Shown here: positions 1 through 18,781 of the stretch, piece by piece | Numbering within the stretch: the first letter of the stretch is position 1 | Layout: every line of letters begins with the position of its first letter | DNA from: an uncultured Roseateles sp. | GTDB lineage: Bacteria; Pseudomonadota; Gammaproteobacteria; Burkholderiales; Burkholderiaceae | Direction of reading: 5' to 3' | Length of the DNA stretch: 22,075 bases | Assembly (NCBI GenBank): GCA_946480605.1 | Contig: CAMLKW010000052.1 | Span: 1 to 22,075, forward strand | Notes under the pieces: model-generated | Database searches by the model: none | Seen by the model: only the letters and a program-made list of their open reading frames with translations | What the model was told of the DNA's origin: nothing | Translations under genes and position numbers: made by a program

Positions 1-681
1 CTGCGCGAACATGGCTGCGCCGTGGTGCTGCTGGACGTGCAGATGCCCGGCGTCGACGGCCTGCAGTTCGCCGACGGCCTGGCCCAGCGTGTGGCCGGCG
101 GCCAGCCGGTGCCGCTGGTCGTCTTCGTCACCGCGCATGCCATGCACGCGCTGCGCGCCTTCGAGCTGGACGCGGTGGACTACCTGACCAAGCCCGTGCG
201 CCGCGAGCGGCTGCAGGCGGCGCTGGCGCGCTGCGCCCAGCGCCTGGCCGAGCGCAGCGCCGTGCAGGCCCAGGTGCCGCCCGACATGCCCATCGCGGCC
301 GAGGCCGACTTCGTCACCATCACCGACCGCGGCCGGCTCAAGCGCGTGCCGGTGGCCGAGGTGCTGTACTTCAAGGCCGAGCTGAAGTACGTGACGCTGC
401 GCACCGCCGGCGAGAGCCATGTGATGGACGGCGCGCTGTCCGAGCTGGAGCAGCGTTTCGGCGACCGATTTCTGCGCATCCATCGCAACGCGCTGGTGGC
501 GCGCTGGGCCGTGCGCGAGCTGGAGCGGCATGCGCCCACCAGCTTTGGCGAACTGGACGGTGGCGATGGCGAGGCGGCCGACAGCTGGGCGGTGCGCATC
601 GTGCACGTGGACGAATGGCTGGCCGTGTCGCGCCGCCAGGTGGCGGCGGTGCGGGAGGCGCTGGCAGGGCAGGGGCGGTGA
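1..681 (+). CDS. AlgR-like LytTR response regulator (5' end missing)
   Basis: Cytoplasmic two-component response regulator whose reading frame is open at the window edge, so about 40 N-terminal residues (including the acidic pocket) are missing. The visible receiver half has the phospho-acceptor Asp in LLDVQMPG (fragment residue 12), the switch Thr in FVTA and the conserved Lys in YLTKP. A LytTR DNA-binding domain follows, from roughly fragment residue 98, with the typical LKYVTLRT and RIHRNALVAR segments and a C-terminal VSRRQVAAVREAL helix. Domain order and motifs match AlgR of Pseudomonas, which pairs with the atypical histidine kinase AlgZ/FimS. The kinase gene may lie upstream of the window. 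In Pseudomonas algR precedes hemC; here about 17 kb of other genes separate the two. Its targets cannot be read from the sequence; the two unknown genes just downstream are candidates because they follow on the same strand. Confidence 0.9.
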   Translation: MREHGCAVVLLDVQMPGVDGLQFADGLAQRVAGGQPVPLVVFVTAHAMHALRAFELDAVDYLTKPVRRERLQAALARCAQRLAERSAVQAQVPPDMPIAAEADFVTITDRGRLKRVPVAEVLYFKAELKYVTLRTAGESHVMDGALSELEQRFGDRFLRIHRNALVARWAVRELERHAPTSFGELDGGDGEAADSWAVRIVHVDEWLAVSRRQVAAVREALAGQGR

Positions 682-757
682 AGGCGCCGCTGCGGGCCAG
701 CGGCCTGTCGCCGTGGGAGCTGCATCCGCGTCGCGTGCAGCCGGGTGGGGCGGTGCC

Positions 758-1900
758 TTGAGGCGAGGCTGGCGTTGGCTGGGGCTCGGGGTGCTGCTGA
801 TCGCCGTCTCGGGTGGGTGGCTGGGCTGGCGCGAACTGACGCGGGACGGGCCGCAGGCGGCACCGGCGGCCGTGGCGGCTTCGGCCGCAGAACCGTTGGC
901 CGACGGATGGCTGAGACCTGCCGCGGCGGCTGCAGCGTTGCCGGCCACAAGTGCCGCCTCGGGTGTCGCAAATGGGGCTGCGGAGCCCGGGTCCACAGCG
1001 ATGGAAATCTGCCGCGTCGGGCGCTTCACAAGGCGGCAGGCCGAGGGCTGGGGTGCCATCGAGAAGCTCCGGATGATGGCCGGCATGTATGCACTCGACC
1101 AGCGCAAGGACGCGGCGCTGAGCCAGTTGTCCGCGCGGCTGGCGGCGGGCTCGGACAGCGAGCGGGTGGCGGCGCGGCTGGTGATGGACGATGCCGAGGG
1201 GGCGGCGAGCATCGCCGCACGCTCCAGCGACGCGGCGGCCTATCGGCTGGCCCTGCTTCGCTGCCGCAGCCAGAGCGACGCAGCGCCCAGTTGCCGGGCG
1301 CTGACGGTGCAGGCCTGGCAGCAACTGGACCCTCAGGACGCACGACCCTGGGCACGGCTGGTGGCCCAGGCCTGGGAGCGCAAGGATGAGGCGGCGGCCG
1401 CGCAGGCGGTGGAGGAGATGCTGCAGCGCCGCCCGCGCGGCACCAACAGCCCGTTGCTGGAGTCCCTGTACCAGGCGCAGGATGCCGTGGCGGACGTGGA
1501 AGCCCGGGGCCTGTTGGTGATGGAGCTGATCGGCAGGGACTCGTTGCTCTCGCCGTGGGATGGCGTCTTCGTGTTCTCGCGTTATTGCAGCGCTGACCGC
1601 TTGAAGGACGCGTCGCTTCGCGCCCGTTGCGAACGGGTGGCGCGCTGGCAGCTGCAGCATGCGACCGATCTGGTGGAAGCCGGGAGCGCCACCGCCATCG
1701 CCGACCGCGTTGGGTTGCCGGCGGACCAGCGCCCCTTCACCGGCGAGCAGCTGAGGCGAGGGCAGGAGCGGTTCATGGCGTGGTCCACCCAGCGGCTTGG
1801 CATGAGTTGCGCCGAGCTCCAGCACACCTCGGAATGGATGGTGCAGCGCGTGCAATTGGGCGAACTGAAGATGGCGCTGCAGGCCGCGGCCGACCGTTGA
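758..1900 (+). CDS. Membrane-anchored hypothetical protein, first of a paralogous pair
   Basis: Not recognised as a named family. From the proposed TTG start the protein has about 380 residues: a basic N-terminus (RRGWRW), one hydrophobic segment at about residues 5-22, an Ala/Pro-rich linker, then a mainly helical, Ala/Arg-rich domain that should sit in the periplasm. Several Cys residues (in EICRVG, LLRCRS, PSCRAL, RYCSAD, RARCER, MSCAEL) could form disulfides. The helical composition suggests a TPR- or Sel1-like solenoid, but no clear repeat was found. The start is uncertain: TTG 758 directly precedes the membrane segment and has a G-rich stretch (GGTGGGG) upstream, while in-frame GTG 713 is the alternative. 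The frame is open much further upstream, but that part overlaps the regulator gene. It shares a Cys pattern with the next gene, 21 bp downstream. Confidence 0.6.
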   Translation: MRRGWRWLGLGVLLIAVSGGWLGWRELTRDGPQAAPAAVAASAAEPLADGWLRPAAAAAALPATSAASGVANGAAEPGSTAMEICRVGRFTRRQAEGWGAIEKLRMMAGMYALDQRKDAALSQLSARLAAGSDSERVAARLVMDDAEGAASIAARSSDAAAYRLALLRCRSQSDAAPSCRALTVQAWQQLDPQDARPWARLVAQAWERKDEAAAAQAVEEMLQRRPRGTNSPLLESLYQAQDAVADVEARGLLVMELIGRDSLLSPWDGVFVFSRYCSADRLKDASLRARCERVARWQLQHATDLVEAGSATAIADRVGLPADQRPFTGEQLRRGQERFMAWSTQRLGMSCAELQHTSEWMVQRVQLGELKMALQAAADR

Positions 1901-1921
1901 TCTGGCCCGTATGCTGTGGCC

Positions 1922-3277
1922 ATGATCGTGCAGTTACGTCGCCGCCTGTGGGCTGGGGTGATCGTCGTCGGCTTGCTGGCCACCGTGGGCGGTTGGTGGA
2001 GTCGGGAGTTTGCTGCGCCTCATGGTGAGACCCCGACTGCCGTGGCCGGCGTGCCGCGAGCCGTCGCCGCAGCGATGGACGCCAGGCCGACCGCCGGAAG
2101 GCTTGCCACGCCGGTGTCTGCCGTGGTGGCGTTGAGCGCCGCTCCCGAGCCCTCCCTGGCGCCGGCTCAGGAGCGGGCCCGCGCCGAGCTGAAGCAGCGC
2201 ATGCAGGCGGACTGGTGCGGGTTCGGGCTTGCCGAGAAGAGCCGGCAGATTGAGGCTGTCTTCGAGAAGGCGAGTGCCGGTGGGCGGCCCATTGGCGTGG
2301 ATGTGATCGCCGAGGTGAACCGCACGCCGGCTGCAGAAGTGACGGACGAGGCGGTTGCGCAAGTGCGCCAACGCTGGGTGGCGGCTCTGCAGCGGCGCGG
2401 CGACCCGCGCTCGCTGGCTGTGGCGGAGTACCTGGGCGGCAGCGATGGCGACGTGTCCCGGGCTTCGGCGCGCTTGCAGGCGCTGGCGCGCAGCGCCACC
2501 GACCCCATGGTGACCGCGCTGGCGCTGCAGCGGCCCTGCTCGCCGGGCTGCGGCAATGTCGATCGGGCGCAATGGTCGCGGCTGGAGCCAGCCAATCTGC
2601 AGGCTTGGCTGACGCTGCTGGGCGATGCGCGCACGCGCCACACGCAGGAGGCTTATGTGCTGGAGCGCATCGCCAGCGAGGCACGCTATTCGCGCACCTA
2701 CGAACGCGAGTTCAAGGTCTTGCTGCTGGAACTGCCGCAGACGGAGTCGCCCGGGCTGGTGCAGGAGGCAGAACTGCAGCTCATCGTCGGCACTGCCTCG
2801 GCATGGCCCCTTGCCAGCCTTCGGCCCGCGATGGAGTTCTGCCGTGCGAAGGCTGCGGAGCCGGCGAGTCAGCATCTGTGCCTGGCTGTGGCCGAACTGA
2901 TGTGGCAGGGGGACAACCTGGTCGATCGCAGCCTGGCCCTGGCGCTGGTGCGGCAGCTGTTGCCTGCGCGGGCCGGGTTGCGGGCCCAATGGGAGCCTCG
3001 TGCGCGTGTGGCTGAGGCTGTGCGGCATTGGGCTGAGTCCAACGTGGCGCCTTGGCTGTCTGAGGTGGGGGCGGAGGCGTCTTCTTGTGGCTGGCAGGCG
3101 GGCATTCGCCGTGAGCTGCAGGTGCGCGCCGCGCAGGGGGAGTGGGGGCAGCTGCAGGCCGATATGCAGGCCGCACGGGCGGACGAGGCCAGCCTGTCCG
3201 CGAAGTGGCGCCAGGGCGCGGGCCGCGGTCTGCTGGATCCGCTGCCGTCGGCGCGCCCGGCGTCTTCGGGGCGTTGA
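1922..3277 (+). CDS. Membrane-anchored hypothetical protein, second of a paralogous pair
   Basis: About 451 residues from ATG 1922; in-frame GTG 1916 is an alternative, and neither has a clear Shine-Dalgarno. The N-terminus is IVQLRRRLWAG followed by a hydrophobic stretch ending in GGWW, a type II anchor or uncleaved signal. After a low-complexity linker comes an Ala/Leu/Arg-rich helical domain. It can be aligned by eye with the preceding gene product: ADWCGFGLAEK with MEICRVGRFTR, the short Cys pair before W..L.P....W..L, and FCRAKAA...HLCLAVAELMW with YCSADRL...RCERVARWQL. The two genes therefore probably arose by duplication and diverged strongly. Function is unknown. Extracytoplasmic location is inferred from the anchor and the paired Cys. 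The gene meets the hydrolase gene tail to tail with only 3 bp between stop codons and no visible terminator. Confidence 0.72.
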   Translation: MIVQLRRRLWAGVIVVGLLATVGGWWSREFAAPHGETPTAVAGVPRAVAAAMDARPTAGRLATPVSAVVALSAAPEPSLAPAQERARAELKQRMQADWCGFGLAEKSRQIEAVFEKASAGGRPIGVDVIAEVNRTPAAEVTDEAVAQVRQRWVAALQRRGDPRSLAVAEYLGGSDGDVSRASARLQALARSATDPMVTALALQRPCSPGCGNVDRAQWSRLEPANLQAWLTLLGDARTRHTQEAYVLERIASEARYSRTYEREFKVLLLELPQTESPGLVQEAELQLIVGTASAWPLASLRPAMEFCRAKAAEPASQHLCLAVAELMWQGDNLVDRSLALALVRQLLPARAGLRAQWEPRARVAEAVRHWAESNVAPWLSEVGAEASSCGWQAGIRRELQVRAAQGEWGQLQADMQAARADEASLSAKWRQGAGRGLLDPLPSARPASSGR

Positions 3278-3280
3278 AGC

Positions 3281-4090
3281 TCAGTCGGTCGTGAAGGCCT
3301 CGGCCTGGTGGCGATGCAGCGCTTCCAGCAGTAGCGGGTTGACACGCGCCGCGTCCGAGATGGGCGCCAGGTGGCCGGCGCCTTCCAGCGCTGCCAGTTG
3401 CGCGTGTGGCAGGCGGGCTGCGAGCGTCTGCGCCACGCGGCGGGCGCTGGCGCGCGTGGCGCCGCCGCAGATCAGCTGCACCGGCATCTGCAGCGTGGCG
3501 AGCTGGGCGTCGCTCCAGCGCGCCGCGCTCAAGGCCTCGAAGTGGCGGCGTATGGTGGGCATGGGCTCGGCCAGACGGGCGCGCTGCCCTTCGTCCAGCT
3601 CGGGCCACACGTCTCGGCCTTGCCAGTAGCCGACGAAGCCGCGAGCGGCGCCGTCCAGGTCGCCGCGGTCCAGCGCTGCGGCGACGGCCGCCGCCACCTG
3701 CTGGGCTTCCTGCCATTCGGGCAGGTCCTCGCCCAGCGCGGGCAGCAGGCCGAAGGCGACCGGCTCGTACAGCGTCAGCGAGCGCACGCGCTGCGGCTGC
3801 TGCAGCGCGAGCTGCAGCGACACGGCGCCGCCGTAGCTGTGGCCCACGAGGTGGAAGGCTTGGGCGGGCGGCAAGTCCAGCCCGGCCAGTACGCCGTCGG
3901 CCTCGAAGGACAGGCGGCTGGCCACGCCGTCCGGCCAGCCGGCACGGCCGCCGTGGCCCAGCAGGTCGGGTGTGTGCCAGCGCCAGGCCAGGCCGGCGTC
4001 GGCGGCGTCTGCGAGCAGCCGGCGCCATTGCTTGCCGCCTGCGCCGCTGGAGTGCAGGCAGACGATGGGCAGGGCGGGGCTGTCGGTCAT
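3281..4090 (-). CDS. Alpha/beta-fold hydrolase
   Basis: A 269-residue single-domain alpha/beta hydrolase, probably cytoplasmic since no signal peptide is seen. Near the N-terminus CLHSSGAGGKQW supplies the oxyanion-hole loop, TPDLLGHG the next conserved loop, and GHSYGG at residues 83-88 the nucleophile elbow with Ser85. The catalytic His is probably His240 in GAGHLAP. The usual acid position after the sixth strand reads CGGATRAS and carries no Asp or Glu, so the acid may instead be Glu109 in LYEP, as in some subfamilies. The substrate cannot be predicted; ester or lactone hydrolysis is a family-level guess. The gene is last in the leftward ppc operon, 43 bp after the diguanylate cyclase. The ATG lacks a strong ribosome-binding site, so coupling or read-through translation is plausible. 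Confidence 0.85.
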   Translation of the reverse strand: MTDSPALPIVCLHSSGAGGKQWRRLLADAADAGLAWRWHTPDLLGHGGRAGWPDGVASRLSFEADGVLAGLDLPPAQAFHLVGHSYGGAVSLQLALQQPQRVRSLTLYEPVAFGLLPALGEDLPEWQEAQQVAAAVAAALDRGDLDGAARGFVGYWQGRDVWPELDEGQRARLAEPMPTIRRHFEALSAARWSDAQLATLQMPVQLICGGATRASARRVAQTLAARLPHAQLAALEGAGHLAPISDAARVNPLLLEALHRHQAEAFTTD

Positions 4091-4133
4091 GGAGGGGCTT
4101 TCGTCGTGGCTCGGGCGGCCATCGTAGAACGCG

Positions 4134-5447
4134 TCAGCCGGTGAGGCCGCCCTCGGCGATGACGCGGTTGCGGCCCTGGGCCTTGGCGCGGTAGAGGGCC
4201 GCGTCGGCGGCGGCGAAGACCTGCTCCAGCGGGCGTTCGCCGTTGTCCATCGCGGCGACGCCGAAGCTGGCCGTCACGCGCAGGCCGTCGCCGAAGTCAT
4301 GGCCGGCCACGAGGGCGCGCAGCTTCTCGGCAATGGCCTGCGCCTGCGGCAACTGGGTGTCGCGGCAGACCAGCAGGAATTCCTCGCCGCCCCAGCGGCC
4401 CAGCAGATCCTGGGCGCGCACATGGCTGCGCACCAGCGCGGCCAGGCCGGCCAGCACGCGGTCACCGGCCTGGTGGCCGTGGCTGTCGTTGACGGCCTTG
4501 AAATGATCGATGTCGATGAGCACCAGGCCCAGCGGGTGCTGGTGGCGGCGCCAGTCGGCCAGAGCCTGCTGCAGCACGTCCTCCAGTCCCTTGCGGTTGA
4601 AGGCGCCGGTGAGCGCATCGGTGGTGGCCATCTGCACCAGCTGTTCGCTGCGGGCGTTGAGCACTTGGTTGATCTCGTGCAGCTCCTGCGACTGCTGGCG
4701 TTGCTTGCGCACCATGGTCTGCAGCCGGACCAGGCGCAGCAGCAGGTAGAGCAGCGCCAGCCCCAGCCAGATGCTCATGATGATGAGATACCAGCGTTCG
4801 GTGGACAGGCGCTGCACGTCGTACTCCACCTTGTGCAGCACGAAGCGGTACTCGCCCAGCGGCGCCTCGGTGCCGGTGGTGATTTCGAGCGTGACGATGT
4901 TGTCGAATTCGGGCCGCCCCAGGTGCGGCGCGACGTGGAACTGCTGCATCCACCAGTTGGCGACGACGAAGTTGCGCAGGTCCACTTCGATCATGCCGCC
5001 CTGGATGGACTGGGCGTTGATCTCGATGTGGTTGTACTTGGCGGATTCGTTCTCGGCTTGCGGGATGCCGTAGGCCGGGCTGGCGTTGCGCAACTGGATC
5101 TTCAGCGTGCCGGCGGGGCCCTGGTAGTCCAGCCACAGCCGCATGCGGCGCACTTCGCTGAGGTCCACGCCTTTGACGAGCTGCGGGTCGAAGCGCAGCG
5201 CGATGCCGCAGTAGGGGTAGCGGTAGCGCGCCTGCAGCGTGCACAGCAGCTCGAAACCTTGGGCAGGACCGCGCCTGACTTGGCTGTTGCCGCCGTTGCG
5301 CTGGTCGGACATCGGCTCCGTGAGGAAGGGCGCGTCGGGCGCGATGACCCGGACCTGCCGCAGCAGCGCGTCGGAGAACTGCACCGCGGCCACGCTGAGC
5401 AGCATCAACAGCAGCAGGCTGTATTCAAAACGCCACTTGAACCCCAT
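4134..5447 (-). CDS. Membrane diguanylate cyclase (GGDEF) with periplasmic sensor domain
   Basis: A 437-residue inner-membrane enzyme predicted to make cyclic di-GMP from two GTP. Transmembrane helix 1 lies at about residues 10-28 and helix 2 at about 219-240. Between them is a periplasmic region of roughly 190 residues rich in beta-type sequence (MRLWLDYQG, TLKIQLRN, MIEVDLRNF, IVTLEITTG), resembling a jelly-roll or carbohydrate-binding-like fold. A coiled-coil linker (about 242-272) leads to the GGDEF domain, which starts at TTDALTGAFNRKG. The active-site loop is GGEEF (353-357). RAQD at 344-347 lies exactly five residues before it and matches the RxxD inhibitory I-site, so product inhibition should be intact. 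No EAL domain is present. It lies 74 bp downstream of ppc on the same strand and may be cotranscribed with it. The ligand of the sensor domain is unknown. Confidence 0.92.
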   Translation of the reverse strand: MGFKWRFEYSLLLLMLLSVAAVQFSDALLRQVRVIAPDAPFLTEPMSDQRNGGNSQVRRGPAQGFELLCTLQARYRYPYCGIALRFDPQLVKGVDLSEVRRMRLWLDYQGPAGTLKIQLRNASPAYGIPQAENESAKYNHIEINAQSIQGGMIEVDLRNFVVANWWMQQFHVAPHLGRPEFDNIVTLEITTGTEAPLGEYRFVLHKVEYDVQRLSTERWYLIIMSIWLGLALLYLLLRLVRLQTMVRKQRQQSQELHEINQVLNARSEQLVQMATTDALTGAFNRKGLEDVLQQALADWRRHQHPLGLVLIDIDHFKAVNDSHGHQAGDRVLAGLAALVRSHVRAQDLLGRWGGEEFLLVCRDTQLPQAQAIAEKLRALVAGHDFGDGLRVTASFGVAAMDNGERPLEQVFAAADAALYRAKAQGRNRVIAEGGLTG

Positions 5448-5521: not shown

Positions 5522-8320
<2,799 letters not shown>

Positions 8321-8399: not shown

Positions 8400-8602
8400 A
8401 TGGGCCGCTGCCGATGCGGGCCTGCAAGCCCGTTGTTGTCGCGCATCCACGGCGTGGAACGGCCCGTTTCGCCACTGCCAGAAGGCCCGCGTGGCAGGGC
8501 ATCCGCACCGTCTTCGGGGTGGGCGAAGCTGGCATTGCGCACTTACAAGGGAGGTGGAGAGGCGCCGGTGCGGCGGCGCAAGAGTTGGCGCCGTGGCGGG
8601 TG

Positions 8603-8630
8603 AGCCCCCTCGGCGCTGCGCCGAGGGGCT
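8603..8630. repeat. Strong intergenic inverted repeat (hairpin)
   Basis: Arms AGCCCCCTCGGCG (8603-8615) and CGCCGAGGGGCT (8619-8630) pair completely apart from one bulged C, around a CTG loop. No T-run follows on either strand. It may be a dispersed intergenic palindrome of the genome or a bidirectional transcription barrier. No second copy was seen in this window. Confidence 0.55.
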
Positions 8631-8754
8631 GGCCCGGCTGCCGCATGGGCCTGCAGGCGCATCCGCAGCAGAGCCGGTTCTGTAGCGCGCAGGCACCACG
8701 CCGGGTAAACCAGACTGTCGGCGCAATTGAATGCCGGGAGTGAATGGGATATCG

Positions 8755-8770
8755 TAGACAACGTTGTCTA
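8755..8770. promoter_or_regulatory. Perfect 16-bp palindrome TAGACAACGTTGTCTA (candidate operator)
   Basis: Both 8-bp halves are exact reverse complements with a central CG, the symmetry used by LacI/GalR-family repressors. It marks the beginning of the AT-rich stretch 339 bp upstream of the receptor ATG. Genes for Xanthomonas/Caulobacter-type receptors are often controlled by such regulators, so this is a plausible operator. The regulator is not encoded in the window. Confidence 0.6.
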
Positions 8771-8811
8771 TTTCGGATGCCGACGTTTGTCGTAATCCCG
8801 GTATTGCTGAC

Positions 8812-8825
8812 TGGGAGCGATAACA
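8812..8825. promoter_or_regulatory. LacI/GalR-type operator candidate TGGGAGCGATAACA
   Basis: Matches the degenerate pattern TGNNANCGNTNNCA typical of LacI/GalR-family sites. With its flank it reads GAGCGATAACAATT, strikingly like the right part of the E. coli lac operator but one base shorter. It shares the pattern with a second site at 9018-9031. The individual match is short, so confidence is moderate. Confidence 0.4.
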
Positions 8826-9017
8826 ATTGCTTGCGTCATAACTGGTTCTTCCATGTCTCCCATTGGAGGGCGGTCGTGCTGAGTGTTGGGCATTTCATGG
8901 TTGTTGTGGAATGCGGACAGCGTTAGCCAGACTCGCGTAAACCCCATGATGGGCTGCTTGGGTGAGTCAATAAAGTACAGCAAGCGCTTGAACCAAGGCA
9001 CTGTTGCGCGAGCAATT

Positions 9018-9031
9018 TGGTAACGCTAACA
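9018..9031. promoter_or_regulatory. LacI/GalR-type operator candidate TGGTAACGCTAACA
   Basis: Second site fitting TGNNANCGNTNNCA, with five of seven symmetric positions paired. It is 77 bp upstream of the receptor start and closely followed by CAAGCGCTGG (9030-9039), a near copy of the palindrome CAAGCGCTTG at 8981-8990. Its proximity to the gene makes it a candidate repression site. Confidence 0.4.
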
Positions 9032-9108
9032 AGCGCTGGCATCCGCGGGCTACAAAGTCGTCGTGAAGTCGGCCCGGTTCGGGTCGTTAAAGCAAAGCAA
9101 GGAGACAA

Positions 9109-12100
9109 ATGAAACACCCTCAGAGTTCCAAGATGCGGGCGCAGACGCAGCGGGCGCGGTTGAAGCCGGTAGCCTGGGCGTCGTCGGTCGCGTTGCTCGC
9201 CGGCGCCGCTGCGGTGCAAGCCCAGCAGGCGCCTGCCGCTCCCACCACTGCAGCGCTGGAGACTGTCGTCGTCACGGGTATTCGCAAGTCGCTTGACAGC
9301 GCTGTCACCTTGAAGCGCGAGTCCCGCGGCTTGGTGGATGGCATCGTGGCCGAAGACATCGGCAAGTTTCCCGACACCAACCTGGCCGAGTCGATGCAGC
9401 GCATCGCCGGCGTGTCCATCGACCGCTCGCCCAGCGGCGAGGGCTCCAGGGTCACGGTCCGCGGCGTCGGCCCCGACTTCAATCTGGTGTTGCTGAACGG
9501 CCGCCAGATGCCGACGGCCTTCATCAACCGCCTGAACCAGGGTGCCAGCGGCTCGCGAGCCTTCGATTTCGCCAACCTGTCGTCCGACTCGATCTCGGCA
9601 CTGGAGGTCTACAAGACCGGTCGCGCCGAGTCGCCCACGGGCGGCATCGGTGCCACCATCAACGTCAAGACGGCCCGTCCGCTGGACCTGCGCGAGCGCG
9701 TCGCCAGCATCGGTGTCAAGGTCAACCACGACGCCTCCAACAACCGTCTGCCCGAGTCCTTCAAGGGCGACAAGGCCACGCCGGAAATCTCCGGCATCTA
9801 CAGCGACACCTTCGGCAACCGCACGCTGGGCATTGCCATCAGCGGCAGCTATTCCAAGCGTGACTCGGGCTCCAACGAGGCCTACACGCAGGGCGGCTGG
9901 CTGACCTCGACGCCGAGCTCCAACGACTGGGGAACGGTGCCGCAAGCCCAGCGTCCGAACGGCCTGTATTCCACGTCGGTGGACATGCGCTACTCGCTGA
10001 CCGCGCTGGAGCGCGAGCGCCTCAACGGCCAGGTCACACTGCAGTTCGCGCCCACCAAGGACCTGAAGTTCACCGTCGACCACACCGTCGCGACGAACAC
10101 CATCAACGCCAAGAACGCCGAGCTGTCGAGCTGGTTCAACTTCCAGTTCGGCCCGACGACCTTCACCGGCGGTCCGGTGGCTTCGCCGCTGGTCCAGACG
10201 TCCACCTGGGCGACTCCGGACCACGACCTCGCCATCAACACCGGCGTGTTCGGCCAGAAGGCCAAGTTGAATTCCACCGGCTTCAACTCCGAGTGGAAGA
10301 TCAGCGACGCGCTGAAGATCGACGTCGACGTCCATCACTCCAACGCCAAGACCAGCCCGAACAGCCCTTATGGCACCTACTCGGTCATGGACCTGGGCCT
10401 GTTCAACCAGGGCAATGCCGTCGCGTACTACGACAAGGACTTCCCCATCCTGAGCCTGCCGACCAGCGGCACGCTGGGCACGCCCAACAACGGCAAGCTC
10501 GACCCCACCAAGCTGCAACTGACGGGTTCGCAGTTCGTCAACAACATGAGCGACCAGACGGTCGACCAGTTCCAGACGCGCGGTAGCTGGCGCATGGACA
10601 CCGACAACAAGTTCATCGCGGGTCTCGGTTTCACCAAGACGAAGAACCGTGCCGCCAACCGCAACAACCAGCATGACGACTGGGGTGGCGTGGGTGTGCG
10701 CGGCACGCAGGGCGACTACAACAACGTCAAGGTCTACACCGAGAACCTGCAGAAGTTCTTCGGTCAGATCCCTGGCAGCGACGATCCGCGCCAGTTCCAG
10801 AACTACTACATCGCCGACTTCGACAGCCTGCGTGCAGCGTCCATCGCGGCCATCATGAAGGAGCGTGGCTACAGCAAGGCGCAGGCCGAGGCTTATTTCT
10901 CGACCTCACCCGACTACTCGCTGGGCAACGACTGGCGCACGACCGAGAAGTCCACCAGCGCCTTCGGCCAGTGGGACCACTCGTTCGACACCGCCATCCC
11001 GATGAACCTGTCGGTGGGCCTGCGCTACGAGAGCACCAAGGTGGACTCGTCCTCGCAGGTCGTCACCCGCACGGGCACGAGCTGGGGGACGCAGAACGAG
11101 GTTGCCCTCAACTCCGGCAGCACGACGTTCGGCAGCAAGTCCGGCAAGTACAACTACTGGCTGCCCAGCATCGACTGGGATGCCGACCTGGCGGATAACA
11201 TCAAGGTGCGCGCCAGCTATGGCGAGAACATCGGGCGTCCGGGCTGGGACACCTTGCTCGGCGGCGTGAACTTCAACTCGCCGGCCAACGCAGGCGGCGG
11301 CACCGGCAGCACGGGCGACCCGACGCTGAAGCCGCTGAAGTCCAAGAACCTCGACTTCTCCGCCGAGTGGTACTACGCCAAGTCCAGCTATGCGGCACTG
11401 GGCCTGTTCTACAAGAAGGTGAGCAACTTCATCGGCACGTCGACCTACGACACCACGGTGCCGGGCCTGACGACGCCGATCGGCGGCGCCTACTACCGCG
11501 CCGGTGCGGCCGCCTGCGGCGCCAATGCCACGCCGCTGTGCATCCGCAACTACATCTTCAACAACTTCAGTGGTCAGCCCGGCGTGACCCGCACCGGCGT
11601 GAGTGACTCGGGCGAAATCCTGGGCACCATCGCCGGCCTGCCGACAGATCCGCTGCTGAACTTCCGGGTCACCCGTCCCTCGAACGAGGCCGGTGACAAC
11701 ATCAAGGGCATCGAGCTGAACTTCCAGCACATGTTCGGCAACAGCGGCTTTGGCGTGTCGGGCAACTACACGATGGTGAAGACCGGCCTGGAGTACGACA
11801 ACACCAACATCACCACGCCGCAGCGCGCGCTGCTGGGCGTCAGTGATTCGGCCAACCTGGTGGGTTTCTATGAAGACAACACCTGGTCGGTTCGTGGTGC
11901 GTACAACTGGCGCGGCTCCTTCCTGGCCCAGCGTTTCGACGGCCGCGGCAACAACCCGGTCTACACGGAAGCCTACGGTCAGGTCGACATGTCCATCGGC
12001 TACAAGATCGGCAAGAACCTGACGGTTCAGGCCGACTTGCTGAACCTGAACGATGGCTACATCCGCCAGCATGGCCGTGCCAAGGAGCAACTGGTCTCGG

Positions 12101-12150
12101 CCATCCAGACCGGCCGCCGCTACCTGATCGGTGCTCGCTATCGCTTCTGA
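9109..12150 (+). CDS. TonB-dependent outer-membrane receptor, Xanthomonas/Caulobacter type
   Basis: A 1013-residue outer-membrane active transporter driven by TonB-ExbBD. The start is certain: AAGGAG at 9099-9104 lies 4 bp before the ATG. A signal peptide (basic stretch to residue 20, hydrophobic core VAWASSVALLAGAAA) should be cleaved after VQA, near residue 38. A TonB-box-like ETVVVTGIRKS follows at about 51-61. The plug domain has GIVAEDIGKFPDTNLAESMQ and GVGPDFNLVLLNGRQMP, hallmarks of the TonB-Xanth-Caul receptor family often linked to carbohydrate or complex-nutrient uptake. The remainder is a beta-barrel ending in ARYRF with the terminal Phe needed for barrel assembly. Codons are strongly C-ending (aac, aag, gac), consistent with high expression. 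The ligand is unknown. The downstream halogenase/SapC/cupin genes form the family's recurring partners. Nothing suggests siderophore specificity. Confidence 0.96.
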   Translation: MKHPQSSKMRAQTQRARLKPVAWASSVALLAGAAAVQAQQAPAAPTTAALETVVVTGIRKSLDSAVTLKRESRGLVDGIVAEDIGKFPDTNLAESMQRIAGVSIDRSPSGEGSRVTVRGVGPDFNLVLLNGRQMPTAFINRLNQGASGSRAFDFANLSSDSISALEVYKTGRAESPTGGIGATINVKTARPLDLRERVASIGVKVNHDASNNRLPESFKGDKATPEISGIYSDTFGNRTLGIAISGSYSKRDSGSNEAYTQGGWLTSTPSSNDWGTVPQAQRPNGLYSTSVDMRYSLTALERERLNGQVTLQFAPTKDLKFTVDHTVATNTINAKNAELSSWFNFQFGPTTFTGGPVASPLVQTSTWATPDHDLAINTGVFGQKAKLNSTGFNSEWKISDALKIDVDVHHSNAKTSPNSPYGTYSVMDLGLFNQGNAVAYYDKDFPILSLPTSGTLGTPNNGKLDPTKLQLTGSQFVNNMSDQTVDQFQTRGSWRMDTDNKFIAGLGFTKTKNRAANRNNQHDDWGGVGVRGTQGDYNNVKVYTENLQKFFGQIPGSDDPRQFQNYYIADFDSLRAASIAAIMKERGYSKAQAEAYFSTSPDYSLGNDWRTTEKSTSAFGQWDHSFDTAIPMNLSVGLRYESTKVDSSSQVVTRTGTSWGTQNEVALNSGSTTFGSKSGKYNYWLPSIDWDADLADNIKVRASYGENIGRPGWDTLLGGVNFNSPANAGGGTGSTGDPTLKPLKSKNLDFSAEWYYAKSSYAALGLFYKKVSNFIGTSTYDTTVPGLTTPIGGAYYRAGAAACGANATPLCIRNYIFNNFSGQPGVTRTGVSDSGEILGTIAGLPTDPLLNFRVTRPSNEAGDNIKGIELNFQHMFGNSGFGVSGNYTMVKTGLEYDNTNITTPQRALLGVSDSANLVGFYEDNTWSVRGAYNWRGSFLAQRFDGRGNNPVYTEAYGQVDMSIGYKIGKNLTVQADLLNLNDGYIRQHGRAKEQLVSAIQTGRRYLIGARYRF

Positions 12151-12162
12151 GCGATGAGCCCG

Positions 12163-12211
12163 GCCGCCCGGTGACGCCACCCTGGGGGTGGCCAGCCGGG
12201 CGGCGTTTGTT
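12163..12211 (+). terminator. Stem-loop with short T-rich tail after the receptor gene
   Basis: Outer arms GCCGCCCGG (12163-12171) and CCGGGCGGC (12196-12204) pair perfectly; an inner hairpin GCCACC/GGTGGC (12176-12181/12187-12192) stacks inside. The tail reads GTTTGTT. It starts 12 bp after the receptor stop codon. It is probably a partial terminator or mRNA-stabilising structure separating the abundant receptor transcript from the enzyme genes. Confidence 0.55.
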
Positions 12212-12247
12212 GGCCGAGGCGGGCGTGCAGACGCTCGCCTCGGCCAA
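12210..12247 (+). terminator. Second, 12-bp perfect stem-loop before halogenase A
   Basis: TTGGCCGAGGCG (12210-12221) pairs exactly with CGCCTCGGCCAA (12236-12247); inside, GCGT/ACGC forms a further 4-bp stem with a GCAG loop. The tail GTTGCTTTG is only mildly T-rich. Together with the preceding hairpin it fills most of the 162-bp gap between receptor and enzyme genes, suggesting attenuation or processing. Confidence 0.5.
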
Positions 12248-12312
12248 GTTGCTTTGCAGAATGCTCGGGCCTTGCGGCAGCCGACGGCCCGCACGGCCCA
12301 TACTTCCCGAGG

Positions 12313-13872
12313 ATGGATTCCGAGTTGACGACGGCCGTTCGACGCATCGTGGTGCTGGGTGGTGGCTCGGCCGGCTGGCTGACGGCCGCGACCCTGGCCG
12401 CCGAACATGGCGGTGATGCCGCCGATGCCTTGCAGATCACGCTGATCGAGTCGCCCGATGTGCCGGCCATCGGCGTGGGCGAGGGTACCTGGCCCACCAT
12501 GCGGGCCACGCTGCACCGCATCGGCCTCAGCGAGGTCGATCTCATCCGCGAATGCGATGCCGCCTTCAAACAGGGCTCCTGCTTCGACGGCTGGCTGCAT
12601 GGCGGTCCCGGCGACCGTTACTACCATCCCTTCTCCCTGCCGCATGGCTTCGGCGAGGTCGACCTGGCGGGTGCCTGGGCGCAGCGCGGCGGCGAGCCGG
12701 CCTTCGCCGAATGCGTGGGGCCGCAGCCGCATCTGTGCGAGGCCCATCTCGCGCCCAAGCAGACGACGACCCCCGACTTCGGCGCCGTCATGAACTACGG
12801 CTACCACTTCGACGCCGTCAAGCTGGGCCATCTGCTGCGTCGGCATGCGACCCAGGTGCTGGGCGTGCGCCACGTGGTGGCCCACTTCACGGCCGTGCGC
12901 TCGCACGAGAACGGCGACATCGCCGCGCTGACCACCCGCGAGCACGGCGACATCGAAGGCGACCTCTTCATCGACTGCTCGGGCCTGGCCTGCTTGCTGC
13001 TGGGCGGCCACTACGGCATCCCCTTCCATTCGCAGCAGGGCGTGCTCTTCAACGACAGCGCGCTGGCCGTGCAGGTGCCGCATGCCGATGCGCAATCGCC
13101 GCTGGCGTCGGCGACCATCGCCACCGCCCATGTCCAGGGCTGGACCTGGGACATCGCGCTGCCCACGCGGCGCGGCGTCGGCCTGGTCTATTCCAGCAGC
13201 CACACCGATGACGCAGCGGCCGAGCGCACGCTGCTGGCCCATCTTCAACGCAGCGGCGCGCCCGCCGTGGAGGCCCAGCCGCGGCGCATCCGCTTCAGCC
13301 CCGGCTACCGCGAGCGCTTCTGGCACCGCAACTGCGTGGCCGTGGGCCTGGCGGCGGGCTTCATCGAGCCGCTGGAGGCATCGGCGCTGGCGCTGGTCGA
13401 GCTGTCGGCCGCCTTCATCCGCGACGAGATGCCCGTCAGCCGCGCCGACGTGGACCTGGTCGGCCGGCGCTTCAACGAGGCCTTCGCCTACCGCTGGTCG
13501 CGCATCATCGAATTCCTGAAGCTGCACTACGTGCTCAGCCGGCGCGACGATTCGGACTACTGGCGCGACCACCGGCGCGCCGACAGCCAGCCCGATTCGC
13601 TGCGCGACCTGCTGCAGTTGTGGGCCCATCGCGCGCCGTCGCGCAACGACTTCTACCGCGCCGAAGAGGTCTTCCCCGCGGCGAGCTACCAGTACGTGCT
13701 CTACGGCATGAAGTTCCAGCCCGCCCTGCGCGCGCTGCGCCCGGGGCGGCTGGCCGCGGCCGAAGCGCGCATGAAGGACGTGACGACAATCACCAAGCGG
13801 ATGCTCGGCGCCCTGCCGCGCCACCGCGACCTCATCCAACACCTACGCACGCACGGCATGCCCGCCGCGTGA
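12313..13872 (+). CDS. Flavin-dependent halogenase A (tryptophan-halogenase family)
   Basis: A 519-residue soluble enzyme of the PrnA/RebH-like family, which uses FADH2, O2 and halide to make hypohalous acid that halogenates electron-rich aromatics. The FAD-binding GGGSAGW is at residues 17-23. The Lys that relays hypohalous acid (PrnA Lys79) aligns with Lys86 in AAFKQG. The catalytic Glu (PrnA Glu346) aligns with Glu355 in FIEPLEAS. The signature WxWxIP reads WTWDIA (277-282), so Pro is replaced. GVGEGTWP replaces the commoner GVGEATIP. Halogenation competence is thus likely but not assured, and the substrate is unlikely to be inferable from homology. A reduced-flavin supplier is not encoded nearby. 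The start ATG has GAGG immediately before it, too close for an ideal ribosome-binding site, yet the next residues lead straight into the FAD motif. SapC follows after 17 bp. Confidence 0.92.
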   Translation: MDSELTTAVRRIVVLGGGSAGWLTAATLAAEHGGDAADALQITLIESPDVPAIGVGEGTWPTMRATLHRIGLSEVDLIRECDAAFKQGSCFDGWLHGGPGDRYYHPFSLPHGFGEVDLAGAWAQRGGEPAFAECVGPQPHLCEAHLAPKQTTTPDFGAVMNYGYHFDAVKLGHLLRRHATQVLGVRHVVAHFTAVRSHENGDIAALTTREHGDIEGDLFIDCSGLACLLLGGHYGIPFHSQQGVLFNDSALAVQVPHADAQSPLASATIATAHVQGWTWDIALPTRRGVGLVYSSSHTDDAAAERTLLAHLQRSGAPAVEAQPRRIRFSPGYRERFWHRNCVAVGLAAGFIEPLEASALALVELSAAFIRDEMPVSRADVDLVGRRFNEAFAYRWSRIIEFLKLHYVLSRRDDSDYWRDHRRADSQPDSLRDLLQLWAHRAPSRNDFYRAEEVFPAASYQYVLYGMKFQPALRALRPGRLAAAEARMKDVTTITKRMLGALPRHRDLIQHLRTHGMPAA

Positions 13873-13889
13873 CGCCCTGACCGACTCTC

Positions 13890-14585
13890 ATGCTGCAACT
13901 GCTCAACAACATCCAGCACAAGGACCTGCGCATCGTCACCGAACGGGGCGCGCGATGGGGCGACGACGTGATGTCGGCGCCTGTCACGCCGGACGAGTTC
14001 CGCAAGCTGCAGGCCCATTACCCCATCGTCTTCCAGCCCGACGGCCAGGGCAGCTACCTGCCGGTCGTGCTGTTTGGCCTGCAGCAGGGGCAGAACCTGT
14101 TCCTGACCGACGCCGGCTGGGACGCCGACTACCTGCCGCTGTCCATGCAGCGCATGTGTTTCTCCATCGGCCTCTCGGACACGGAGCTGCGCATGGTGGT
14201 GGACATGGCCAGCCCGCGCATCAGCCACGGTGCCGAAGGCGAGGCCGTATTCCTGCCGCACGGCGGCATGACCGAGTTCATCGAGAACGCCAACTCGGTG
14301 CTGCACACCTTGCATCAGGGCCTGCAGGCCATGCCCGAGTTCATACAGACGCTGACGGCGCACGAGCTGCTGGAGCCCTTCGTGCTGGACGTCGAGCGCC
14401 CCGACGGCTCGCGCGGCCAGCTGACGGGCTTCCACATCATCCATGAGGAGCGCCTGGCCGGGCTGGACGCCGCCACCGTGGGCCTGCTGCACCAGGCCGA
14501 CTACCTGCAGCCGATTTACATGGCCATCGCCTCGCTGTCCAACTTCACGAAGCTGATCCGCCGCCACCTCGACCGCGGCGGGTGA
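13890..14585 (+). CDS. SapC family protein
   Basis: A 231-residue protein of the SapC family, which was named for a Campylobacter surface-layer protein but is widespread next to TonB receptors and tryptophan-halogenase genes. Family-like features are the opening segment with a short basic/aromatic pattern, then HYPIVFQPDGQGSYLPVVLFGLQQGQNLF, of which I quote only the first part as evidence (HYPIVFQP, LPVVLFGLQ), the DAGWDADYLPLSMQR segment and the acidic C-terminal half ending in SNFTKLIRRH. No signal peptide or membrane segment is seen, so it is probably cytoplasmic despite the name. Biochemical role is unknown; recurrent neighbourhood suggests an accessory to the halogenases or their substrate. 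The ATG is 17 bp after halogenase A, without a clear Shine-Dalgarno. The stop overlaps or closely precedes the next start (GTGA). Confidence 0.88.
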   Translation: MLQLLNNIQHKDLRIVTERGARWGDDVMSAPVTPDEFRKLQAHYPIVFQPDGQGSYLPVVLFGLQQGQNLFLTDAGWDADYLPLSMQRMCFSIGLSDTELRMVVDMASPRISHGAEGEAVFLPHGGMTEFIENANSVLHTLHQGLQAMPEFIQTLTAHELLEPFVLDVERPDGSRGQLTGFHIIHEERLAGLDAATVGLLHQADYLQPIYMAIASLSNFTKLIRRHLDRGG

Positions 14586-14590
14586 CGGCC

Positions 14591-15574
14591 ATGCGCGAGC
14601 GCAGCGACGTCAGCGCGCAGGCGCTACCGGCCGAGCTGCTGCAGTCCGGCCATCCGGTGCTGCTGCGCGGCCTGGTCGCGCACTGGCCGCTGGTGCAGGC
14701 GGCTCGGCGCTCTGACGCGGCCTTCTGCGACTACCTGCGCGGCTTCGGCGGCGACACGCGCGTGGGCCTGTGGCGCGGCGCACCGGACATCGCCGGGCGC
14801 TTCTTCTACAACGACGACTTCAGCGGCTTCAACTTCCGCCGCGAGATCGGTCACTGCGGCGCGCTGCTGGACGAGCTACTGGCCCAGGTGCCCGACGCCC
14901 TCTACCTGGGTTCGACCGAGGTGGATGGCTCCTTCCCCGGCCTGCGCGAGGCCAACCCGCTGCCCGCGCTGCAGGTCTTCGATCCGCTGGTGAACCTCTG
15001 GCTGGGCAACCGTACCCGCGTCGCCACTCATTTCGACCTGGCCGACAACATCGCCTGCGTCGTCTCCGGTCGGCGCCGCTTCACGCTGTTCCCGCCGGAG
15101 CAGGTCGGCAACCTCTACATCGGTCCGCTGGACCTCACGCCGGCCGGCCAGCCGGTCAGCCTGGTCGACCCGGCCGCGCCCGACCTGCAGCGCTTCCCGC
15201 GTTTCGCCGAGGCCCAGCGGCACGCGCAGGTCGTCGAGCTGGAACCGGGCGACGCGATCTTCATCCCCAGCCAGTGGTGGCATGCGGTCGAGGGGCTGGA
15301 GCCCATCAACGCGCTGGTCAACCTGTGGTGGCGGCAGTCGCCCGCCTACATGGACTCGCCGCTGCCCACGCTGATGCTGGCGCTGCTGACGCTGCGCGAC
15401 CTGCCGCCGCACCAGCGCGACGCCTGGCGGGCGCTGTTCGACCACTACGTCTTCGACGCCGACGCGCAGACCGCGGCCCACCTCCCGCCCGCGGCCCGCG
15501 GCGTGCTCGCGCCGATGAACGACGCCAGCGCCCGCCAGATCCGCAGCCTGCTGCTGAACCGACTCAACCGATGA
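14591..15574 (+). CDS. Cupin-like/JmjC-type putative Fe(II)/2-oxoglutarate oxygenase
   Basis: About 327 residues from ATG 14591, which has GGGTGA seven bases upstream; in-frame GTG 14582, overlapping the sapC stop, is the alternative. The sequence matches the cupin_8/JmjC-like group: an N-terminal GHPVLLRGLVAHWPL, the metal-binding HFD (His147, Asp149) in VATHFDLADN, the VSGRRRFTLFPPEQ strand pair, and the distal metal His231 in PSQWWHAVEGL followed by NALVNLWWRQ. These give a complete HxD...H triad, so an iron-dependent hydroxylase is expected, by analogy with FIH-type asparaginyl and related protein or small-molecule hydroxylases. Substrate unknown. It is cytoplasmic, and its stop codon overlaps the start of halogenase B by ATGA, so translation is coupled. 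It belongs to the same operon as both halogenases. Confidence 0.88.
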   Translation: MRERSDVSAQALPAELLQSGHPVLLRGLVAHWPLVQAARRSDAAFCDYLRGFGGDTRVGLWRGAPDIAGRFFYNDDFSGFNFRREIGHCGALLDELLAQVPDALYLGSTEVDGSFPGLREANPLPALQVFDPLVNLWLGNRTRVATHFDLADNIACVVSGRRRFTLFPPEQVGNLYIGPLDLTPAGQPVSLVDPAAPDLQRFPRFAEAQRHAQVVELEPGDAIFIPSQWWHAVEGLEPINALVNLWWRQSPAYMDSPLPTLMLALLTLRDLPPHQRDAWRALFDHYVFDADAQTAAHLPPAARGVLAPMNDASARQIRSLLLNRLNR

Positions 15575-17823
15575 GCCTGCCCATGACGCCTCAACCCCAA
15601 CCCGTCCGCCGTGTCGTCATCTGCGGCGGCGGCACCGCCGGCTGGATGGTCGCCGCCGGCCTGTCCAAATGCCTGGGCAAGCAGATCGACATCCGCCTGG
15701 TCGAGTCCGAGGAGATCGGTACCGTGGGCGTCGGCGAGGCCACCATCCCGACGCTGCACTTCCTGCACGACGTGCTGGACCTGGACGAGAAGGAGTTCAT
15801 CCAGGCCACGCAGGCCACCTTCAAGCTCGGCATCAACTTCGAGAACTGGCGCAATGTCGGCCGCGACTACTTCCACTCCTTCGGCAAGACCGGCAAGAGC
15901 CACTGGACGGCCGGCTTCCAGCACTTCTGGCTGGAAGGCCGCCGGCGCGGCCTGGCCAGCGACTACGGTGACTACTGCCTGGAGCTGCGGGCCGGCCTGG
16001 ACAACCGCTTCGCGCTGCTGCCCGACAACGGCATCAACTACGCCTACCACTTCGACGCCACGCTGTACGGCCAGTACCTGCGCCGCTTCTCCGAGGCGCT
16101 GGGCGTGCAGCGCGTCGAGGGCAAGATCGTCAAGGTCCACACCGACGCGGCCAGCGGCGACGTCACCGGTCTGCAGCTGGAGCGCGGCGAGCTGATCGAG
16201 GGCGACCTCTTCGTCGACTGCTCCGGCATGCGCTCGCTGCTGCTGGGCGAGACCCTGGGCGTGCCCTACGAGAGCTGGTCGCACTGGCTGCCCTGCGACC
16301 GCGCGTTGGCCGTGCAGACCACGTCGGTCGGCGAGCCCGTGCCCTACACCCGCTCCATCGCCCACCCCTGGGGCTGGCAATGGCGCATCCCGCTGCAGCA
16401 CCGTGTCGGCAACGGCGTCGTGTTCAGCAGCCGGCATGTCAGCGACGACGAGGCCAAGGCCGCGCTGCTGGCCAACGTGCAGGGCGAGGTGCTGCGCGAG
16501 CCGCGCGTCATCAAGTTCACGCCGGGCCAGCGCGAGGTGGTCTGGAAGAACAACGTCGTCGCCATCGGCCTGGCCAGCGGCTTCCTGGAGCCGCTGGAGT
16601 CCACCAGCATCCACCTGATCCAGAAGGGCCTGCTGCGCCTGGTCGAGATGTTCCCCGCCAACGGCGTGCGCCAGAGCGACATCGACGAGTACAACCGCCA
16701 GGCCCGCGAGCAGATCGAGGTCATCCGCGACTTCATCATCCTGCACTACCACGTCACCGACCGAACCGACACCGCCTTCTGGCGAGCCTGCCGCGACATG
16801 GAGGTGCCGCCGCTGTTGAAGCACCGCATCCAGCACTTCCGCGACACGGCGCGCATCATGCTGGACCTGGGCGAGCTGTTCCAGGAGAACTCCTGGGTGC
16901 AGGTCATGATGGGGCAGGGCATCCAGCCCGCAGGGCATCACCCCATCACGCGCAACATGGATGACCGCGCGCTGGCCGACTTCCTCGGCGACATCCGCAA
17001 GGACGTGGCGCGCACGATGATGAAGCTGCCCCGGCACCAGCAGTTCATCAGCCAGTTCTGCCCCGCGCCCAAGGTGGAGGCGGCCGCCCCGAAGCCCGTG
17101 ATGGCCGGGCCGGCGCTGCGCATCAACCCGCAGGCGCGCATTGAGACGGTGCAGCTGGCCGACGGCGCCAAGGTCTTCGTCGTCGACGACTTCGCGCAGG
17201 ACCCCGAGTCGCTCGTCGCGCTGGCGGCCTCCGTGAACGGCCAGTTCGCGCCGCTGGCCGGCCATCCCTATCCCGGCCCGCAACTGGACCTGCCCGACAG
17301 CATGGCCGCCGACCTGGACAGCTTTTTCCGCCGGCACCTGAGCCAGCCGCTGCGCACCGGTGCGCCGCTGGGCATGTATGGCCGCTTCGCGCGCGTCGCG
17401 CAGGACGCGGCCACGCTGGACGCCCGTCAGCGCATCTGCCACCGCGACGACTCCGCGCTGCAGGTCGGCGAGATGATCTCGGCCTCCGTGCACTACCTGT
17501 TCAAGGACGAGCGGCTGGGCGGCACCGTGTTCTTCCGCTCGCTGATGAGCGAGGCCGACACGCAGCAGTTCCGGCGCGACGCCAACACGCTGGACGCCAG
17601 CGCCTTCGGCGACAAGTACGGCATCGCGCCCGGCTACATGACCGAGAGCAACCGCTACTTCGAGGTCATCGGCCGCGTGCCCGCCAGATGGAACCGCGCC
17701 ATCTTCTACGACGGCGGCATCTTCCACACCGGCGACATCCAGTGGCAGGCCAACCGCGATGCCTACCAGGCCGGCCCGGGCCGCCTGACCATCAACGCCT
17801 TCTTCAAGAGCCGCCAGCCCTGA
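15571..17823 (+). CDS. Flavin-dependent halogenase B fused to a C-terminal DUF6445-like oxygenase domain
   Basis: A 750-residue two-domain protein; PrnA-type halogenases are near 540. Residues 1 to about 496 form the halogenase: GGGTAGW (19-25), GVGEATIP (53-60), Lys85 in [11 protein letters not shown] aligning with PrnA Lys79, an intact WxWxIP (269-274, WQWRIP) and Glu343 in FLEPLEST aligning with PrnA Glu346. A linker rich in Ala/Pro (about 497-523) leads to a C-terminal domain of about 225 residues like DUF6445. It carries CHRDD (His624, Asp626), a distal His719 in GGIFHTGD and RLT at 738-740, an HxD...H...R layout that recalls Fe(II)/2-oxoglutarate oxygenases. This assignment is inference. 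The start ATG overlaps the preceding stop (ATGA); ATG 15583 is the alternative. Both domains look catalytically complete, so coupled halogenation and hydroxylation on one substrate is possible. Confidence 0.93.
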
Positions 17824-17837
17824 GGCCGGCATGGTGG

Positions 17838-17852
17838 CCTCGATAATCGAGG
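17838..17852 (+). promoter_or_regulatory. 15-bp palindrome over the hemC ribosome-binding region
   Basis: CCTCGAT-A-ATCGAGG is a perfect palindrome ending two bases before the hemC ATG at 17855. The right arm contains the Shine-Dalgarno-like GAGGG, and the centre contains GATAAT, a good -10 hexamer though no convincing -35 precedes it. It may be a DNA operator or promoter element; a hairpin with a one-base loop is sterically poor. Confidence 0.45.
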
Positions 17853-17854
17853 GC

Positions 17855-18781
17855 ATGACCACCCCCATCACCATCGCCACGCGGGAGAGCCGCCTGGCGC
17901 TGTGGCAGGCCGAGCACGTGCAGGCCCGCCTCGTCAACGAGCTGGGCCTGACGGCCACGCTGCTGGGCATGACCACCCGCGGCGACCAGATCCTCGACCG
18001 CACGCTGTCCAAGATCGGCGGCAAGGGCCTGTTCGTGAAGGAGCTCGAAGCCGCGCTGGCCGAAGGCCGCGCGCAGCTGGCCGTGCATTCGCTGAAGGAC
18101 GTGCCCATGGAGCTGCCCGAGGGCTTCGCGCTCGCGGCCGTGCTGGAGCGCGAAGACCCGCGCGACGCCTTCGTATCCAACGACTACGCCTCGCTGGCCG
18201 AGCTGCCGCAGGGCGCCGTGGTGGGCAGCTCCAGCCTGCGCCGCGTCACTCAACTGCTGGCGCTGCGGCCCGACCTGCGTGTGGAGCCGCTGCGCGGCAA
18301 CCTCGACACGCGGCTGCGCAAGCTGGACGAGGGCGGCTACCACGCCATCGTGCTTGCAGCCGCGGGGCTGAAGCGTCTGGGCTTGGCCTCCCGCATCCGC
18401 GGCCATTTCGAGATCGACCAGATGCTGCCCTGCGCCGGGCAGGGTGCGCTGGGCATCGAGATCCGCGCCGACGATGCGGTGCTGGCCGCGGCGCTGGCCC
18501 GGCTGGCCCACACGCCCACGCTGCTGGCCTGCGAGGCCGAGCGCGCCGTGTCGCGCGCGCTGGGCGGCAGCTGCAGCCTGCCGCTGGCCGCGCACGCGCG
18601 CTGGCAGGGCGGCACGCTGCGCCTGGACGCTGCGCTGGGCCACGCCGAAGCTCACACCTCGCCGCTGCTGCGTGCCGGCGTGGCGGCCGAGGTCGGCGAC
18701 ATGGCCGCCGCCCGCGCGCTGGGCCAGCAGGCTGCCGCGCGGCTGCGCGAGCTGGGCGCCGGGGCCTACCTGCCGGGATGA
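17855..18781 (+). CDS. hemC: Hydroxymethylbilane synthase (porphobilinogen deaminase)
   Basis: A 308-residue cytoplasmic enzyme that polymerises four porphobilinogens to hydroxymethylbilane, the linear tetrapyrrole precursor of haem, sirohaem and cobalamin. Family hallmarks are [15 protein letters not shown] near the N-terminus, [14 protein letters not shown], the catalytic Asp in [31 protein letters not shown], and the cofactor-attachment Cys240 in [12 protein letters not shown], to which the dipyrromethane is bound. The start ATG 17855 was preferred over the in-frame ATG 17831 because GAGGG lies just upstream and the product then begins like family members ([11 protein letters not shown]). 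It follows halogenase B by 31 bp and overlaps hemD by ATGA, heading the haem operon. Confidence 0.97.

Follow-up and report, generated by a model that had tools for sequence, protein, structure and literature searches.

Between ppc and hemC of an uncultured Roseateles sp., the window (the whole stretch of DNA that was analysed, 22,075 nucleotides) carries a five-gene operon that we regard, with high confidence, as a receptor operon under sugar control to which tailoring enzymes are linked, because the linkage of its TonB-dependent receptor to flavin-dependent halogenases is conserved, glycosidase genes lie near its relatives and LacI-type palindromes lie upstream of the receptor gene. The receptor and four closely packed genes that the initial annotation had recognized between 9109 and 17823 were all recovered at those positions, with Pfam or TIGR01782 matches, and are given here with the genes that border them:

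5522 to 8320, reverse strand: ppc, left neighbour and border of the insertion site
9109 to 12150, forward strand: TonB-dependent receptor of 1013 aa (TIGR01782, 602 bits, cut-off 310)
12313 to 13872, forward strand: flavin-dependent halogenase HalA (PF04820, 386.5 bits, cut-off 21)
13890 to 14585, forward strand: SapC family protein (PF07277, 210 bits)
14582 to 15574, forward strand: JmjC/Cupin_8 oxygenase (PF13621, 240 bits)
15571 to 17823, forward strand: HalB, whole gene, a fusion of PF04820 and PF20043 (DUF6445)
15571 to 17080, forward strand: halogenase part of HalB (PF04820, aa 14 to 464, 623.6 bits, cut-off 21)
17128 to 17823, forward strand: DUF6445 domain of HalB, a predicted Fe(II)/2-oxoglutarate oxygenase (PF20043, aa 520 to 745, 209 bits)
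17831 to 18781, forward strand: hemC, right neighbour and border of the insertion site

The genes for HalA, SapC, the cupin and HalB have near-touching or overlapping ends, and hemC is followed by hemD, hemX and hemY-type genes. Among the genomes scanned, the nearest relatives of the window are Pelomonas and Roseateles. A survey of 60 genomes of the same family found hemC in 58, and in the best 30 of these 58 matches ppc directly adjoins hemC in 26, HalB-DUF6445 lies between the two in two (one of them the genome of locus L001 itself) and neither arrangement is present in the other two. The five-gene cassette is therefore inserted between ppc and hemC at a site that is mostly empty in relatives. 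Elsewhere in the window, positions 1 to 4200 hold long ORFs on both strands, of which none of the seven scanned with Pfam gave a match, and a GGDEF protein gene lies at 4134 to 5447 on the reverse strand. Around positions 8500 to 9500 the G+C content drops to about 0.61 to 0.65 and the GC skew changes sign, at the divergent transcription of ppc and the receptor gene.

The association of receptor and halogenase recurs in other genomes. A search with HalB yielded 370 relatives, and within the best 80 of these 370 loci the receptor lies upstream in 77, the other three beginning at a contig end; receptor, HalA, SapC, cupin and HalB follow one another in that order on one strand in 53, only HalA is missing from the run in 14, and 13 hold other gene sets. 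HalB and DUF6445 form one open frame in 26 of the 80 loci; outside the fused loci DUF6445 is a separate gene, or none was found. As these 80 loci were chosen by HalB similarity, we also surveyed whole genomes. Twelve genomes taken from those with HalB loci hold 91 strong halogenases, at least 76 of them no more than 6 kb (the proximity limit used) from a TIGR01782 receptor, where 4.2 would be expected at random. The conserved co-occurrence on which the initial annotation had staked its account is borne out by both counts. Fifteen of the 91 had no receptor within 6 kb among the matches listed, and follow-up found that four of these do adjoin one (two by Pfam, two by a custom model), leaving 11, some of which may also have a nearby receptor because the Pfam scan covered ten ORFs of nine loci. 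In a broader sample of 150 genomes from the phylum, with the best ten candidates per genome scored, at least 15 carry a halogenase at a threshold of E 1e-60, one of them already in the 12-genome set. Seven genomes of this sample with complete receptor lists (one with 45 of its 57 candidates scored; the other seven new genomes were left out) hold 29 halogenases, of which 21 are within 6 kb of a receptor, against 0.86 expected, and eight are not. Each of the 12 genomes has between 2 and 17 strong halogenase genes, far above expectation for natural-product enzymes. Judged by sequence, the parts belong to known families, and their link, receptor with halogenase, appears to have no earlier report in the open-access literature that we searched; subscription papers were outside that search, so the novelty of the link is not proven.

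HalA and HalB are both members of PF04820. In the flavin-dependent tryptophan-halogenase family, which includes PrnA and RebH, a Lys and a Glu have catalytic roles and WxWxIP is a characteristic motif. An alignment of 182 rows with repeats, comprising 167 distinct halogenase sequences, retains the catalytic Lys in 166 of the 167 and the Glu in all of them. Both residues are present in HalA and HalB, whose intact active-site residues agree with the earlier assignment to the FAD-dependent halogenases. HalB carries the complete motif as WQWRIP and HalA reads WTWDIA; among HalA-type proteins the Pro of WxWxIP occurs in 3 of 69 rows and is missing in 66. The nearest PDB entry to HalA is 2pyx (565 bits, nearly full length), a structural-genomics tryptophan halogenase cited as unpublished in the excerpt of PMC7336383, and the nearest to the halogenase domain of HalB is 6y1w (Xcc4156, 699 bits), with 6frl (BrvH) at 455 bits. 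Xcc4156 and BrvH share with HalB the catalytic Lys and Glu and the WxWxIP motif; the DUF6445 fusion, in contrast, is a feature of HalB, and HalB lies beside a TonB receptor whereas the excerpts of the papers on both enzymes make no TonB link (PMC7336383, PMC5945002). According to these excerpts, Xcc4156 and BrvH accept indoles and refuse free tryptophan, close relatives brominate in vitro, and a peptide substrate has been proposed (PMC7336383, PMC5945002). HalA and HalB also match the phage family phrog_2928 (tryptophan halogenase), HalB at 352 bits, and one distant viral locus was found; DUF6445 has a weak match (47 bits) to phrog_1644, which is annotated as a minor coat protein. We speculate that phage halogenases may relate to TonB receptors serving as phage receptors.

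The iron triad of JmjC/Cupin_8 Fe(II) oxygenases has the form HxD...H, and in the JmjC/Cupin_8 protein of the window H150-x-D152...H234 is invariant across 20 aligned rows. The oxygenase-like domain that had been noticed earlier in HalB is indeed present and can be refined to DUF6445; a 19-row alignment, in which two rows are the same protein, shows H121-x-D123, H216 and R235 to be invariant. Its structure model (pLDDT 93.7) gave 27 matches in the PDB with E-values of at most 0.001, the first being OGFOD1, and resembles OGFOD1, PHD2 and P4H, which act on proteins, with modest TM-scores of up to about 0.5; the fold matches also include Fe/2-oxoglutarate enzymes acting on small molecules. Motif and fold together predict that DUF6445 is a prolyl-hydroxylase-like Fe(II)/2-oxoglutarate oxygenase. 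The structure model of SapC was likewise confident (95.4), and its comparison with PDB structures gave no match. SapC also occurs on its own: in 11 of the 12 genomes a single SapC gene lies apart from halogenases (loci L111 to L121), and the sampled neighbours of these lone genes include CNNM/CorC-type and FAD-oxidase genes. In Gilvimarinus (locus L032), a second SapC-like ORF (12233 to 12934, 23 percent identical to the SapC of the window) and a second cupin lie just downstream of HalB and DUF6445.

Signals that could control expression surround the receptor gene:

8756 to 8769, no strand assigned: perfect 14-base palindrome AGACAACGTTGTCT, LacI-operator-like, one match in the window
9018 to 9031, no strand assigned: operator-like TGGTAACGCTAACA, one letter off the Xanthomonas xyl-box TGGTAGCGCTAACA
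12163 to 12204 and 12210 to 12247, forward strand: two very stable hairpins, terminator- or attenuator-like, in the gap between receptor and enzyme genes

The single window match of AGACAACGTTGTCT compares with 0.02 expected when up to two mismatches are allowed, and at no more than one mismatch it occurs upstream of the receptor in 11 of 71 regions and in none of the shuffles; the xyl-box sequence is that given in the excerpt of PMC7748154. A strong palindrome with a LacI-type CG core lies upstream of the receptor in 53 of the 71 regions; mononucleotide shuffles gave 1.9 such regions, with 5 as the largest count, and among 64 control stretches 6 had one. This shared operator footprint may be partly due to common descent, because some stretches of the upstream region still align among near relatives. 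The gap between receptor and HalA spans 162 bases and contains the two strong hairpins, and 45 of 64 related receptor-enzyme gaps fold better than mononucleotide shuffles (z below -2).

The sugar link was absent from the account of the initial annotation, and it is seen in relatives and upstream operators only. Using neighbour-gene models built from clusters of the same loci, each named by one Pfam-scanned representative, we found GH1, GH3 or GH16 genes near 48 of the 62 loci away from ppc/hemC (GH1 in 16, GH3 in 25 and GH16 in 30) and a LacI-type regulator gene in 35 of the 62, as against 0 of the 18 loci at ppc/hemC in either case. The 11 loci with a lone SapC gave no glycosidase genes. An extra survey covered 20 of 24 places with halogenase and receptor but neither SapC nor cupin nearby, with 76 of 131 unlabelled neighbours scanned, and the neighbours (25 of 89 families listed) include GH2, 9, 13, 20, 27, 31, 63-like and 95 as well as glucokinase; genes for sugar transporters of the MFS or ABC type also lie near relatives elsewhere. 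Searches for glycosidase, LacI and sugar-transporter families found no match among the 20 other ORFs or genes of the window scanned. The Xanthomonas xylan system is a carbohydrate-utilization locus of the CUT/PUL type with a TonB receptor. The window operon resembles such loci in its TIGR01782 receptor, its LacI-type operators (one near the xyl-box) and its relatives with glycosidases, but differs in that no glycosidase, regulator or transporter, the genes by which a CUT/PUL locus is recognized, stands alongside it among the ORFs scanned.

As the substrate of the linked enzymes we propose, tentatively and at somewhat less than even chances, the receptor polypeptide before export. The receptor crosses the cytoplasm before Sec export, and it is a candidate because it is the partner common to the loci while glycosidases vary widely; we see no second polypeptide for export in the operon, where the gaps contain small ORFs. 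The likeness of DUF6445 to protein hydroxylases also speaks for the receptor, as does, more faintly, the weak match of HalA and HalB to flavoproteins that modify a partner protein, while the small-molecule enzymes among the fold matches and the halogenases that had no receptor listed within 6 kb speak against it. A LacI-type regulator, presumably encoded outside the window, would act on the two palindromes (8756 and 9018), and the hairpins after the receptor gene would probably hold the enzymes scarcer than the receptor by attenuation. HalA, HalB, the JmjC oxygenase and DUF6445 would then halogenate or hydroxylate receptor residues, most likely tryptophan, in the cytoplasm, with SapC as a possible binding or presenting partner, and the modified aromatic residue could tune glycan binding by stacking. 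In sequence tests, no receptor residue tracked the enzymes cleanly once clades were allowed for. Trp occupies the W934 position in 28 of 40 receptors beside a halogenase versus 9 of 40 that are not, and the enrichment of a W934/A931 signature was explained by receptor clades; W367, suggestive as a HalA-linked residue among near relatives, was lost as a candidate across 25 receptors (W in 10 of 16 HalA-bearing versus 5 of 9 HalA-less loci). The receptor of the window shares 83 percent identity with the receptors of the HalA-less loci L009 and L025 and 70 percent with that of L001, and its DUF6445 is 83 percent identical to that of L001 and 70 to 73 percent to those of L025 and L009. Trees agree in their topology, placing the receptor with L009/L025 and HalB with L001, and these sequence relationships indicate that receptor and enzymes have recombined.

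The initial annotation had proposed a different substrate, namely a ligand imported by the receptor, which the cytoplasmic enzymes would halogenate and hydroxylate for use or detoxification. Such a ligand might be an aromatic-bearing glycan fragment or glycoside, modified on its aromatic part. We consider an imported ligand somewhat less likely than the receptor and do not favour it, because no inner-membrane transporter is linked to the operon (none among the window ORFs scanned, nor, with MFS models, in the 18 ppc/hemC relatives), because many different glycosidases stand beside related loci, and because we know of no plain sugar that serves as a halogenation substrate. The joint conservation of receptor and enzymes would fit an imported ligand, as would the sugar-transporter genes near relatives elsewhere and the small indoles accepted by BrvH and Xcc4156 (PMC7336383, PMC5945002). 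Our grading of the two substrates, receptor polypeptide and imported ligand, follows from setting the shared partner and the indole and peptide data against the recombination and the lack of a tracking residue.

It is improbable that the product of the enzymes is a small halogenated molecule of its own (a signal, a defence compound or a siderophore-like ligand), either sharing the regulation of the receptor or taken back up through it. Several enzymes do share one operon, and FAD halogenases with this fold take part in making natural products, but no scaffold-making enzyme or precursor gene was identified among the window ORFs scanned, and the strong halogenases of the 12 genomes are too numerous and mostly lie beside receptors; the earlier judgement that this is not a classical halogenated-antibiotic cluster also stands, with no NRPS or PKS match among the window ORFs scanned. 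QhpG and LodB are flavoprotein maturases that modify a partner protein, and HalA and HalB are distantly related to them, although the scores are far below the family cut-offs (QhpG, 28.8 bits for HalA and 22.7 bits for HalB; LodB, 17.9 bits for HalB) and the partner proteins differ. Still less probable is that the halogenase-like proteins are flavin enzymes that hydroxylate a protein or ligand, with halogenation only a side activity, a reading with which these weak matches and the missing Pro of HalA-type proteins are compatible but against which stand the near-universal halogenation Lys and Glu and the bromination by close relatives in vitro (PMC7336383, PMC5945002).

With the receptor polypeptide as the substrate, a wider possibility arises, which we put forward with more hesitation: in many Pseudomonadota, residues of glycan TonB receptors may be halogenated and hydroxylated in the cytoplasm by the receptor-linked enzymes HalA, HalB, the JmjC oxygenase and DUF6445 together with a receptor-binding SapC. 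Xcc4156 and BrvH are structurally solved halogenases for which the excerpts of the papers name no native substrate (PMC7336383, PMC5945002), and the position of halogenases mostly beside glycan-type receptors narrows the hunt for that substrate to receptor peptides and receptor ligands. If our proposal is true, the operon would represent a system by which outer-membrane receptors mature post-translationally and would give halogenases of the BrvH/Xcc4156 type their native role, and halogenated receptors would be a novel type of protein maturation within a very large family of receptors.
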